From: Aquisalimonas lutea
Lineage (GTDB): Bacteria > Pseudomonadota > Gammaproteobacteria > Nitrococcales > Aquisalimonadaceae
DNA: 64,000 bases
Assembly: GCF_030409225.1 (NCBI RefSeq)
Contig: NZ_JAUFPK010000005.1
Span: 48,900 to 112,899, forward strand
Direction of reading: 5' to 3'
Position 1 is the stretch's first letter, and every line of letters starts with the position of its first letter. This document shows positions 1,411-38,101 of the stretch, one piece after another. Position numbers and translations under genes: made by a program. The notes beneath the pieces were generated by a model. That model did no database searches and had not been told where the DNA came from. It worked only from the letters and a program-made list of their open reading frames with translations.

Positions 1411-1647
1411 GTTCCGTCCGGGCGCGGGGCGGGGCTTGTTGTTCGGGCTCCGGAGCTCCGCTTACGGCCCCTGCTTCATGTGAAGCAGGGGCCTATCCTC
1501 CGCTCCGGCCTGGCCGGCTGACAGCACATCCTTGTGCTGACAGCCGGTGGCGGCGTCCCTGCCGCCACCCTTCGGGCCGGACGGCCTGCGCTCCGGCGCT
1601 GCGCAAGTCGCCCGAACAACAAGCCCCGCCCCGCGCCCGGACGGAAC
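1411..1647. repeat. A-type nested inverted-repeat element, copy A1
   Basis: Terminal arms 1411-1448 and 1610-1647 are perfect 38-bp reverse complements. The 161-bp core contains further hairpins: 1466-1493 (12-13 bp), 1514-1547 (two 7-bp stems around an A/A mismatch, loop TCCT) and 1546-1569 (9 bp). It fills most of the 461-bp gap between the divergent thiolase and MaoC genes and ends 19 bp before the MaoC start. Related cores occur at 15106, 15358, 29785 and 37866, but with different arm sequences. Confidence 0.85.
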
Positions 1648-14042: not shown

Positions 14043-14984
14043 ATGACCATTCTCGTGGTAGCGGAACATGACAACGCGCACCTGGCCTCGGCGACCCTGG
14101 GGACGGTGACCGCCGCGAAGGCCATCGGCGGTGACGTGCACGTGCTGGTGGCGGGCAAGGACTGCGGCCCCGTCGCGGAGGCCGCGGCCAAGGTCGACGG
14201 CGTGGCCAAGGTGCTGGTCGCCGATGCCCCTCACTACGAGCACGGCCTGGCGGAGGATCTCGCCAGCCTGGTGGCCGGCATGGCGGGTGACTACGGCCAT
14301 CTCCTGGCACCGGCGACCACCTTCGGCAAGAACTTCATGCCTCGGGTTGCGGCCCTGCTGGACGTGGCCCAGGTCTCCGACATTACGTCGGTGGAATCGG
14401 AGGACACCTTCACGCGCCCGATCTACGCCGGCAACGCCATGGCGACGGTGCAGTCCACGGACGGCATCAAGGTGATCACGGTGCGGCCGACGGCGTTCGA
14501 GCCGGCGGCTGCCGAGGGCGGCTCGGCGGCGGTGGAATCCGTCGAGGCGAGCGAGCACAGCGGCGTCGCGGACTTCGTCAGCCAGGAGCTGACCAAGTCG
14601 GACCGCCCGGAGCTGACCTCGGCCAAGATCGTGGTCTCCGGCGGCCGCGGCATGGGCAGCGGCGAGAACTTCAAGATCCTCGAGGAAGTGGCCGACAAGC
14701 TCAACGCCGCCCTGGGGGCCTCCCGTGCGGCGGTGGACGCCGGGTTCGTGCCCAACGACTACCAGGTGGGCCAGACCGGCAAGATCGTCGCCCCGGATCT
14801 CTACATCGCCGTGGGCATCTCCGGGGCCATCCAGCACCTGGCCGGCATGGAGGGCTCCAAGGTCATCGTCGCCATCAACAAGGACGAGGAGGCGCCGATC
14901 TTCGAGGTGGCCGACTACGGCCTGGTGGCCGACCTGTTCCAGGCGGTGCCGGAGTTCTCCAAGGAGCTGGACAAGGTCCTGTAA
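14043..14984 (+). CDS. etfA: electron transfer flavoprotein alpha subunit
   Basis: EtfA (313 residues) carries the FAD. The C-terminal FAD domain shows [15 protein letters not shown] and the signature [17 protein letters not shown]-type segment followed by [18 protein letters not shown]. It is translationally close to etfB and the operon ends at a strong terminator at 15014-15042. It serves acyl-CoA oxidation together with the thiolase and hydratases in the window. Confidence 0.96.
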
Positions 14985-15013
14985 GGGGGCGTGAACCATC
15001 CGGCAGCACACGA

Positions 15014-15042
15014 CGGGACGCTCTTCGGAGTGTCCCGTTTTT
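15014..15042 (+). terminator. intrinsic terminator of etfBA
   Basis: A 10-bp stem (15014-15023 with 15028-15037, one G-T pair) closed by a TTCG tetraloop is followed by five T. It is the clearest terminator in the window. Confidence 0.9.
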
Positions 15043-15105
15043 GTTTCCGGTAAGGTGATGTCTACGCCGGGCGTGACGATGTGGTTGCCGGCGGCTTGCG
15101 GTTGG

Positions 15106-15323
15106 GTCGTTGCATGAAGGCAGGGGGATCGGTTGGGCTCCGGAGTTCCGCTTACGGAAGCGAAGCTTCCTACCCTCCGCTCCGGGCTGGCCTGGCGACA
15201 GCACATCCCTGTGCTGACGCCAGGTCGCTTCATCCCTGAAGCGCGACCCCTCCGGGGCCGGGCGCCCTGCGCTCCGGCGCTCCACAAGTCGCCCAGCCGA
15301 TCCCCCTGCCTCCATGCAACGAC
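15106..15323. repeat. A-type element, copy A2
   Basis: Arms 15106-15138 and 15291-15323 (33 bp) are reverse complements with two mismatches. The core aligns with copy A1 in the same orientation, but its stems have different sequences that still pair: GGAAGC-GAA-GCTTCC, CCTGGCG/CGCCAGG (15191-15224) and GGTCGCTTCA/TGAAGCGCGACC. A 20-bp motif starting GGCTTGCGG lies just outside at 15093-15112 and recurs at 29562-29581. Confidence 0.85.
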
Positions 15324-15357
15324 GGGCATGGGGCAGCTGCGCGCTTGTTTGTTCCCC

Positions 15358-15557
15358 GTCGTCTTGCGGAGGCGGGTGCTTGGCCTGGGCGACTAACGGA
15401 GCCCCGGAGCGCAGGCCGTCCGGCCCCGAAGGGGTGGCGGCAGGGATGCCGCCACCGGCTGTCAGCACAGGGATGTGCTGTCAGCCGGCCAGGCCGGAGC
15501 GGAGGAATCAGGCGGAGTTCCGGAGCCCAGGCCAAACACCCGTCTCCACAAGACGAC
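15358..15557. repeat. A-type element, copy A3 (inverted relative to A2)
   Basis: Arms 15358-15390 and 15525-15557 (33 bp) pair with three mismatches. The core is inverted relative to A2. It contains hairpins 15433-15456 (loop AGGGAT) and 15463-15480 (loop GGGA). With A2 it fills most of the 650-bp gap between etfA and the CoA-transferase gene; the remainder (15558-15634) shows no clear feature. Confidence 0.85.
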
Positions 15558-15634
15558 CCGTCCGTAAGCCGATATCCGATGGACCGGACAATCGCCGAGC
15601 TCACGATTCGTGACCGCGCAGGAGCACGAAAGCC

Positions 15635-29624: not shown

Positions 29625-29735
29625 GCGCTGGAGCGGGGCGTCCGGTCACGGACACGCCGTGAATACGTCCCTGTAGGCTCGACTGCGGCCGTCCTGGCCG
29701 CAGACGGTCCGTGACCGGACGCCCCGCTCCAGCGC
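29625..29735. repeat. B-type inverted-repeat element, copy B1
   Basis: Arms 29625-29653 and 29707-29735 are perfect 29-bp reverse complements around a 53-bp centre holding a smaller hairpin (CTGCGGCC/GGCCGCAG). It matches copy B2 at 37711 almost fully, and the two arm differences are compensatory. It lies in the 496-bp gap between dnaE2 and the ABC ATPase gene. Confidence 0.85.
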
Positions 29736-29784
29736 GTGCCGGAGTTCAGCCTTTGGGGGGTGGATCGGCGCTTGGCGGTGCCCG

Positions 29785-29920
29785 TCGATGGTTGGCGGGG
29801 TGTATCCGGGTGGGCGACTTTGCGCAGCGCCGGAGCGGAGGATAGGCCCCTGCTTCACATGAAGCAGGGGCCGTAAGCGGAGCTCCGGAGCCCACCCGGA
29901 TACACCCCGCCAACCATCGA
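29785..29920. repeat. A-type element, copy A4 (internally deleted)
   Basis: Perfect 31-bp arms (29785-29815 and 29890-29920) enclose a 74-bp core. Compared with A5, the segment between two CCGGAGCG direct repeats is missing. It retains the hairpin built on CCCCTGCTTCA. A degenerate inverted copy of the right arm and its flank lies at 29558-29604, so B1 and A4 sit inside a larger imperfect inverted repeat. The rest of 29736-29974 shows no gene. Confidence 0.8.
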
Positions 29921-35432: not shown

Positions 35433-37649
35433 ATGGTCAGCGTAACCGACGACATCAGTGATCTCTTCGCTGACGGTATCCCCACGCCGGAGGCATGGCT
35501 CGAGCGGGTCCAGCCCCGGGCCGGTGACGACGAGCGGCGATTGCTGCTGGGGGCCTGGGAGGCGGCGGCCGAGGTCTACGGCGACGGCATGCGCTCCTCC
35601 GGCGAGAGCTACTTCGAGCACGGCCTGGCGGTGGCCAGCATTCTCGCCGGGCTGAAGCTCGACGCCCAGGCCATCGCCGCCGGCATCCTGCACGACGCCC
35701 CGGCGGTCAGCGGCTCGCGGGAGTCGGTGATCAAGCGCAAGGCCGGCGAGGACGTGGCCGCCCTGGTGGAGGGCGTCAGCCGCATGGACGTGATCAGCGA
35801 GCTGCACGGCCACGCCGGCGAATCCAGGGAGGAGACCGCGCGCCGCACCGACGCCCTGCGCAAGATGCTCCTGGCCATGGCCCAGGATATCCGCGTGGTG
35901 TTCATCAAGCTCGCCGAGCGCCTCCACGATCTGCGCACGCTGCGCACCCATCCTCCGGAGGTCCAGAGGCAGGTCGCCCGGGAGACCACCGACATCTACG
36001 CGCCGCTGGCCCACCGTCTGGGGATCTGGCAGGTGAAGTGGGAGATGGAGGACCTGTGCTTCCGTTACCTGGAGCCGGAGACCTACAAGCGCGTGGCCCG
36101 GCTGCTGCGCGAGAAGCGCCAGGACCGCGAGCGCTACATCCGCCAGGTGACCAGCCAGCTCACCGATGCGCTGCAGCGCGCCGGCATCGAGGCCGAGGTC
36201 TACGGCCGTCCCAAGCACATCTACAGCATCTGGAAGAAGATGCAGCGCAAGGGGCTGGGCTTCCACGAGCTGTTCGACATCCGCGCGCTGCGGGTGATGG
36301 TCAACGATGTCTCCTCGTGCTACGCCACCCTGGGTGTGGTGCACAGCCTGTGGCGGCACATCCCCCGGGAGTTCGACGACTACATCACCGCGCCCAAGGA
36401 GAACAACTACCAGTCGCTGCACACGGCGGTGGTCGGGCCCGAGGGCAAGACCCTGGAGGTGCAGATCCGTACCTGGGAGATGCACGAGCAGGCGGAGCTC
36501 GGCGTGGCCGCCCACTGGCGCTACAAGGAAGAGGTCAGCAACCGCGATACCCGCTTCGAGCAGAAGCTCGCCTGGCTGCGCCAGCTGCTGGAATGGGGAC
36601 GCGAGGACGGGGCCTCGGAGGATTTCATCGACCGCTTCAAGTCGGAAGTCTTCGAGGATCGCGTCTACGTCATCAGCCCCAAGGGGGATGTCCTGGATCT
36701 GCCGCGCGGCGCGACCCCGCTGGATTTCGCCTACTACATCCACAGCGATGTGGGCCATCGCTGCCGCGGGGCCAAGGTCAACGGCCGCATGGTGCCGCTG
36801 ACCTACGAGCTGCAAAACGGCGACCAGGTGGAGGTCCTGACCACCCGCAGCGGCGCCCCCAGCCGCGACTGGCTGAATCCGGCGCGGGGCTATCTGCGCA
36901 CGTCCCGCGCCCGCGCCCAGGTGCGATCCTGGTTCCGGCAGCAGGACCACGACAAGAACGTGGCCGCCGGGCGCCAGGTGCTGGACCGGGAGCTGCACCG
37001 CCTCGGCGTCCAGGACGTGAACCTGGAGCGGCTGGCCGAGAAGAGCCGCTACGCGGACATGGACAGCTTCCTGGCGGCCATCGGCCGGGGCGACGTGAGC
37101 AGCGGCTACATCGCCGGGCTGCTCGGCGAGCACGTGCTGCCGCGCCGGGAGCCCTCTCAGCTGCTGCCGGAGGGCCAGGCGCCGTCCGGCGGCGAGCACA
37201 CCGACGAGGTCTCGATCTACGGCGTGGGCAATCTGCTCACCCGCCAGGCCGGGTGCTGCAAGCCGGCGCCCGGAGATCCGGTGGTGGGGTTCATCACCCG
37301 CGGGCAGGGCGTCACCATCCACCGGCGTGACTGCAACAACATCCGCCGTCTGCAGGAGACGGCGCCGGAGCGGCTCATCGAGGTGAGCTGGAGCCGGCAC
37401 TCGGAGCAGAAGTACCCGGTGGATATCCAGGTGGATGCCTACGACCGCCAGGGCCTGCTCCGGGATATCACCGCGATTCTCACCAACGAGAAGATCAACG
37501 TCACCGGCGTCAACACCAGCACCGGCCGCCAGGATCACCAGGCCCGCATGACGCTCACCGTGGAGATCGGCGACGTCACCCAGATGAGCCGCCTGCTGGA
37601 CCGCATCGCCACGCTCCGCAATGTCCGCGACGTCCGGCGCAAGGCGTAG
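35433..37649 (+). CDS. relA: RelA-type (p)ppGpp synthetase
   Basis: This 738-residue long Rel/Spo homologue has an HD hydrolase-like region (His63, HD at 87-88), a synthetase domain with HIPREFDDYITAPKENNYQSLHT and EVQIRTWEMHEQAELGVAAHW, a TGS domain (VYVISPKGDVLDLPRGATPLDFAYYI) and a C-terminal ACT domain. The acidic ExDD (EFDD) in the synthetase marks the monofunctional RelA group. The HD segment reads HDAPAVSG and lacks the Glu-Asp that follows in hydrolases, so hydrolysis is unlikely. The ATG at 35433 has GGAG just before it. Longer readings overlap lexA and were rejected. Confidence 0.94.
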   Translation: MVSVTDDISDLFADGIPTPEAWLERVQPRAGDDERRLLLGAWEAAAEVYGDGMRSSGESYFEHGLAVASILAGLKLDAQAIAAGILHDAPAVSGSRESVIKRKAGEDVAALVEGVSRMDVISELHGHAGESREETARRTDALRKMLLAMAQDIRVVFIKLAERLHDLRTLRTHPPEVQRQVARETTDIYAPLAHRLGIWQVKWEMEDLCFRYLEPETYKRVARLLREKRQDRERYIRQVTSQLTDALQRAGIEAEVYGRPKHIYSIWKKMQRKGLGFHELFDIRALRVMVNDVSSCYATLGVVHSLWRHIPREFDDYITAPKENNYQSLHTAVVGPEGKTLEVQIRTWEMHEQAELGVAAHWRYKEEVSNRDTRFEQKLAWLRQLLEWGREDGASEDFIDRFKSEVFEDRVYVISPKGDVLDLPRGATPLDFAYYIHSDVGHRCRGAKVNGRMVPLTYELQNGDQVEVLTTRSGAPSRDWLNPARGYLRTSRARAQVRSWFRQQDHDKNVAAGRQVLDRELHRLGVQDVNLERLAEKSRYADMDSFLAAIGRGDVSSGYIAGLLGEHVLPRREPSQLLPEGQAPSGGEHTDEVSIYGVGNLLTRQAGCCKPAPGDPVVGFITRGQGVTIHRRDCNNIRRLQETAPERLIEVSWSRHSEQKYPVDIQVDAYDRQGLLRDITAILTNEKINVTGVNTSTGRQDHQARMTLTVEIGDVTQMSRLLDRIATLRNVRDVRRKA

Positions 37650-37710: not shown

Positions 37711-37821
37711 GCGCTGGTGCGGGGCCTCCGGTCACGGACACGCCGTGAATACGTCCATGTAGGCTCGACTGCGGCCGTCCTGGCCGCAGACGGTCCGTGA
37801 CCGGAGGCCCCGCACCAGCGC
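37711..37821. repeat. B-type inverted-repeat element, copy B2
   Basis: Arms 37711-37739 and 37793-37821 are perfect 29-bp reverse complements. It differs from B1 by one base in the centre and two in each arm, with the arm changes compensating each other. It follows relA by 61 bp and precedes A5 by 44 bp; the same B-then-A order occurs at 29.6-29.9 kb. Confidence 0.85.
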
Positions 37822-37865
37822 GTGCCATGGTTCAGCACTTGTGGGTGCGTCTGCGCATGGCGGTG

Positions 37866-38101
37866 CCCGTCGGTGGTTGGCGGGGGTACGTTGCGGTGGG
37901 CGACTTTGCGCAGCGCCGGAGCGCAGGCCGTCCGGCCCCGAAGGGGTGGCGGCAGGGATGCCGCCACCGGCTGTCAGCACAGGGATGTGCTGTCAGCCGG
38001 CCAGGCCGGAGCGGAGGGTAGGCCCCTGCTTCATCCAAAGCAGGGGCCGTAAGCGGAGCTCCGGAGCCCACCGCAACGTACCCCCGCCAACCACCGACGG
38101 G
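37866..38101. repeat. A-type element, copy A5
   Basis: Arms 37866-37901 and 38066-38101 are perfect 36-bp reverse complements. The 164-bp core contains hairpins with loops AGGGAT (37954-37959) and GGGA in ACAGGGATGT (37979-37988), plus a stem on CCCCTGCTT. It lies between relA and carA in the 686-bp gap 37650-38335. The rest of that gap holds B2, the carA promoter and the leader hairpin. Confidence 0.85.

Follow-up and report, generated by a model that had tools for sequence, protein, structure and literature searches.

Since 2010, TwoAYGGAY (Rfam RF01731) has remained an orphan among RNA families, its role guessed from its motif alone. The proposal that it binds CsrA came from a motif match, in a paper that also carries a note on its external stem, a feature compared here with the variable arms of a repeat family (PMC4333381). 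The structure recognized by CsrA, RsmE, and RsmN is an ANGGAN hexaloop, and the consensus recovered for CsrA by SELEX is RUACARGGAUGU (PMC7652899, PMC3791407). Membership in TwoAYGGAY is set by a covariance model score of 43 bits.

The DNA under study, referred to here as the window, is a 64,000-nucleotide stretch of the genome of Aquisalimonas lutea. Rfam searches of this 64-kb window at the gathering threshold matched only a tRNA. The original prediction placed in it five loci of a repeat, the A-type element, and all five lie where they were reported, with arms and stems as quoted and with the reported arm mismatches (none in A1, A4, and A5; for A2 and A3, see Table 1). The family, at 33 copies, exceeds those five. 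A second kind of repeat, the B-type element, accompanies two of them.

Table 1. Positions of A-type and B-type elements within the window, with the GGA hairpin loops of element A2.
Feature	Position	Strand	Remarks
A1, A-type element	1411..1647	(-), the GGA-loop strand	perfect arms of 38 bp; site unoccupied in G001, G002, and G004
A2, A-type element	15106..15323	(-)	arms of 33 bp, mismatched at two positions
A2 central hairpin loop AGGGAU	15205..15210	(-)	stem CAGCAC/GUGCUG plus outer CCUGGCG/CGCCAGG; matches the CsrA SELEX consensus
A2 second hairpin loop AGGGAU	15232..15237	(-)	stem CGCUUC/GAAGCG
A3, A-type element	15358..15557	(+)	divergent partner of A2; three arm mismatches
B-type element	29626..29743	(-)	upstream of A4, its partner; arms self-complementary, two GGA hairpins
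A4, truncated A-type element	29785..29920	(+)	arms and variable stem retained; both GGA hairpins missing
B-type element of the A5 composite	37712..37829	(-)	
A5, A-type element	37866..38101	(+)	36-bp arms; forms a unit with the B-type element, missing in G003 and G004

Copies were counted across the whole genome of Aquisalimonas lutea with a covariance model, which returns the 33 A-type copies, truncated A4 among them, and with a separate DNA search, which returns about 32. The covariance model also finds 17 copies in relative G002, 8 in G001, 4 in G004, and 3 in G003. A contig of G001 (L036) is identical in sequence to a record of Aquisalimonas sp. CSSed162cmB_310 (L066) and is assigned to the genus of the window's genome. 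B-type elements number about 20 in the window's genome, each with two GGA hairpins and with self-complementary arms that differ between copies. A genome from the same order, G029, has 10 clustered copies (L173-L175) of a related element that has two GGA hairpins and arms of 28 bp, and several of these copies lie within 1.9 Mb +/- 12 kb.

Covariation among A cores was gauged by shuffle and sliding controls. In 33 aligned cores, 98.7% of cells are paired, and changes on both sides occur in 18 of 41 pairs. Cells changed on both sides total 67, against 12.5 +/- 2.8 in shuffles (0 of 500 as high); sliding controls fall far lower. For the core, this bears out the covariation expected of a structured RNA. 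The informative strand is the opposite of the one originally quoted for A1 and A2. On this strand, which we call the GGA strand, every intact copy presents two adjacent hairpins with ANGGAN loops. Across the 33 aligned copies, A, G, G, and A are invariant in both loops, the second and last loop positions vary, and stem bases covary. The second position is mostly G, so that loops strictly of the form AYGGAY belong to a minority of intact copies; the commonest loop is AGGGAU. The central hairpin, GCACAGGGAUGUGC, agrees with the SELEX consensus in the ACARGGAUGU core. Predicted folds have z values of -10 to -13, which marks them as very stable.

When 84,980 genomes were searched for exact matches to the central hairpin, 28 loci turned up across distant Gammaproteobacteria, including Lysobacterales, Rhodanobacter, Psychromonas, Ctena symbionts, Pseudomonas, and others. 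At 25 distant loci chosen by the central hairpin only, the second loop reads GGA in 19 and TCC in 0, compared with 16% in shuffles. Loci sharing the central hairpin in Psychromonas and a Ctena symbiont are overlapped by matches to the TwoAYGGAY model above its cut-off (L052, 43.7 bits; L067, 53.6 bits). Psychromonas marina has four TwoAYGGAY copies within one intergenic region. Aquisalimonas A copies score below the cut-off, and none is among the matches listed in the window's genome, where the best two, at a sub-threshold 31.2 and 28.5 bits, are B-type elements. The earlier view that no named element has these properties thus needs qualification: TwoAYGGAY is the closest named family, with a model that matches the same hairpin in relatives, and the A copies themselves miss its cut-off. 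The A-type arms also agree with the external stem of TwoAYGGAY in their low sequence conservation. We conclude that the A-type family is probably a diverged relative of TwoAYGGAY that works as it does.

TwoAYGGAY itself was present in 17 of 274 genomes of a class-wide sample, often in many copies. Of 11 genomes examined in one rich genus, 10 contain between 4 and 18 copies each, and the repeat unit, about 600-660 bp long, is partly self-complementary. Within this genus (L212-L239) a conserved hairpin, TTTTCTTGGACAAGCAAGAAAA, preceded by CTTCTTTTCG, lies 3' of the TwoAYGGAY core, and a similar block flanks the Lysobacterales loci. Columns 100-130 of the A2 alignment (L212, L216, L202, and others) hold two multi-base compensated haplotypes of hairpin 1 that are common to orthologs and paralogs, a pattern suggestive of gene conversion among copies.

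A stem selected as RNA should tolerate G-U and not A-C, and should do so just on the strand that is transcribed. Counted on the GGA strand, G-U exceeds A-C by 35 to 5 in the TwoAYGGAY genus and by 21 to 8 in B-type elements (26, of which three come from other genera of the order), counts that derive from related, non-independent copies and for which p-values overstate significance. They favor selection at the RNA level on this strand in both TwoAYGGAY and the B-type element. The arms of A-type elements have no such excess, at 12 to 10, and give no sign of selection as RNA. Of the two causes offered at the outset, a structured RNA or arms copied by hairpin-templated repair, the first is supported for the core by its covariation and invariant loops. 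For the arms the two can be told apart in part, and DNA-level copying is possible there.

Arms of A-type elements are 26-47 bp long and pair almost completely: of 1793 columns over 51 copies genus-wide, 37 are mismatched and 5 are indels. An arm scores on average 67 for complementarity with its own partner and 15.5 with the arms of other copies, so the description of arms as self-complementary yet different between loci holds in the main. The arms are diverged rather than wholly unrelated: many begin with GTCG, finish with GGGC, and are 32-34 bp long, and several copies have a recognizable ancestral arm in common, some sharing most of it. The right-flank sequence CCNNCCGCAAGCC recurs in some A copies only, alongside these GTCG and GGGC ends. 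At the other extreme, L008 and L018 have nearly identical cores and unrelated arms. In A4 the 31-bp arms are perfect with both GGA hairpins lost, and arm complementarity is thus independent of the presence of the hairpins. On the GGA strand the 5' arm has a marked excess of G and shortage of A (915 G, 384 C, 346 T, and 147 A in 51 copies), so the arms are compositionally oriented despite their drift in sequence.

Among orthologous A elements of G001 and G002, two pairs show one compensated arm change each; several single-arm changes also occur. One compensated change, from C:G to A:T, is unbridgeable by any G-U step. Template switching in replication is a published source of compensated hairpin changes (PMC8794818) and fits those seen in A arms, but the four ortholog pairs are too few for proof. 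Elements L119 in G002 and L136 in G003 occupy one shared intergenic region in opposite orientation and with unrelated arms, an arrangement that reflects either independent insertions or inversion.

Comparison with relatives shows presence/absence polymorphism with empty sites, as in MITEs, for A1, for A2/A3, and for the composite of a B-type element with A5. G001, G002, and G004 lack A1, and other sequence occupies the gap in G003. A2/A3 is absent from all of G001-G004, three of which carry other intergenic repeats there; at L084, L085, and L086, orthologous to window positions 14980-15620, relatives carry GTAGGGTGGACCTTCAGGTCCACC repeats, classical REP-like sequences with GTAG. The A5 composite is missing from both G003 and G004. 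Its flanks, at window positions 37646 and 38180, map to separate places in the complete G002 genome, near 991 kb and 633 kb, and a rearrangement breakpoint is located near the element site there. Empty sites at A1 and A5 hold neither arm, and the arms therefore arrived with the element. The elements look mobile. As to a target-site duplication at A1, only GG is visible on both sides, in a comparison with highly diverged relatives. The terminal inverted repeats of common sequence typical of MITEs are absent, as arms differ between copies, and none of the listed A arms begins with the GTAG that stands at the 5' end of the palindrome in REP/RAYT systems; copies of typical length mostly start with GTCG. 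Integron attC sites were considered, since the arms contain GTTGGGC/GCCCAAC, and set aside on informal grounds: the motifs stand in inverse arrangement and there is no cassette array.

Neighboring copies are often divergent. In the TwoAYGGAY genus this is true of 31 of 31 close pairs (neighbors within 300 bp), and in the window's genome of 9 of 13, counting A and B together. In several copies a B-type element lies upstream of an A-type element on the opposite strand, with a similar spacer in the G002 copy, so that B-A looks like one unit. By gene calls from a simple GC-frame script, in which single assignments may be wrong, A copies in the window's genome fall between convergent genes in 15 cases, between tandem genes in 14, and between divergent genes in 0. 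The tandem copies divide into 7 sense and 7 antisense, against 10 sense and 1 antisense in G002, and a sense-strand bias was rejected as inconsistent between genomes.

In A-type hairpins, as in CsrA/RsmA sites, an ANGGAN loop with invariant A, G, G, and A is closed by a base pair, and the genome encodes a csrA product with Leu4 and Arg44. Judged from sequence, the GGA strand of the repeat resembles RNA that may be able to bind CsrA, which is our leading hypothesis. The affinity of CsrA for these hairpins is uncertain because their central stems are very stable and SELEX ligands are mostly short-stemmed. We found no description of CsrA-binding dispersed repeats in the open-access papers searched. 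Flanks of 29 aligned A copies, by inspection, have no promoter-like block or U-run in common. This lack of a conserved promoter or terminator beside the elements counts against an explanation through CsrA and TwoAYGGAY, as do the missing wobble bias of A arms, the scores of A copies below the TwoAYGGAY cut-off, and the 7:7 split of tandem copies, against which stands the 10:1 ratio in G002.

On balance, we judge it somewhat probable that A-type elements are mobile, dispersed, structured repeats whose GGA strand is transcribed and bound by CsrA/RsmA, in the manner of TwoAYGGAY. Transcription of that strand would come by read-through or from a nearby promoter. The transcript would fold into two adjacent ANGGAN hairpins clamped by the long variable stem, and CsrA/RsmA would bind the folded strand. 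Such sites, placed in untranslated RNA, could form a distributed sponge or exert a local effect on the host transcript. Insertion would tend to be in divergent pairs, either of two A elements or of one A and one B, in which transcription from either side would yield one GGA-sense half. Arm sequence would drift freely, with pairing maintained through selection for the fold, through correction between the arms by template switching, or through both.

Conservation of the loops in the exact CsrA pattern A-N-G-G-A-N is hard to reconcile with a plausible but rather unlikely account in which the repeats are non-autonomous DNA elements, MITE-like or REPIN-like, moved in trans by a nuclease or transposase that reads folded DNA hairpins. 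The GGA loops would then be its recognition site, with CsrA uninvolved. That account is favored by insertions with clean empty sites, by intergenic spread and REPIN-like inverted pairing, and by the lack of both gene-strand bias in the window's genome and wobble bias in the arms. It leaves unexplained why stems of B-type elements and TwoAYGGAY accept G-U and not A-C on one strand only, which a DNA hairpin does not need, and the terminal arms vary in sequence, unlike usual transposase ends. Genes lying between two close pairs were checked by eye as possible carried genes; they are housekeeping ORFs (enoyl-CoA hydratase-like and 3-oxoacyl synthase-like), and no mobility gene or protein was found.

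The placement of copies between convergent and tandem genes and never between divergent ones, together with the very stable folds, would suit bidirectional 3'-end structures, either terminators or exonuclease blocks that stabilize upstream mRNA. We regard this as improbable: A2/A3 come after an intrinsic-terminator-like hairpin of the upstream gene, and invariant ANGGAN loops and covarying inner stems go unexplained. Intrinsic terminators in particular were rejected, as no U-run follows the arms. Very improbable, and disfavored, is an origin of the arms by inverted duplication of target DNA at insertion, by which they would differ between loci. Copies such as L008 and L018 are what it predicts, but neither arm is found in the relatives' empty sites at A1 and the A5 composite, some arms are common by descent to several copies, and arms are typically 32-34 bp long and bounded by GTCG and GGGC.

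A broader proposal, which we advance tentatively as doubtful at present, is that TwoAYGGAY-like RNAs, A-type included, form a mobile class that spreads pairs of CsrA sites as divergent double units, with a global regulator titrated or rewired by transposition and with arms that renew and stay complementary. The findings suggest that TwoAYGGAY is not an ordinary regulatory RNA but a double element, mobile and dispersed. Should CsrA bind these hairpins, transposition would offer a way to build or tune a global post-transcriptional network. The copies also amount to many natural covariation experiments on how long hairpins retain pairing.

Several known systems share parts of this design. The sponge RNAs CsrB/CsrC and RsmX/Y/Z likewise display GGA hairpin loops matching the CsrA consensus, but are unique genes with promoters and terminators, whereas A-type elements occur as dispersed repeats, each providing about two sites of high quality. 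MITEs and REP/REPIN sequences are likewise short, non-coding, intergenic, mobile, and palindromic, often in inverted pairs; A-type elements differ in ends of variable sequence, in having no GTAG signature and no partner transposase found, and in conserved loops that resemble an RNA-protein site. Hairpins maintained by template switching (quasipalindrome correction) have in common with them long perfect stems in which both sides change together, but represent a mutational mechanism rather than an element, and its operation here is hypothetical. The Yersinia sRNA Ysr224 (RF02770) gives a weak match of 27 bits, against a cut-off of 70 bits, to the B-type element beside L010. TwoAYGGAY differs in that A-type elements score under its cut-off, have loops that are mostly AGGGAU and not AYGGAY, and add about 70 nt of conserved sequence on each side, an additional variable stem, and longer arms. 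The two are alike in presenting two adjacent GGA-hexaloop hairpins on one strand within a poorly conserved external stem, and in occurring, for TwoAYGGAY in the genus examined, as multiple copies in divergent pairs.
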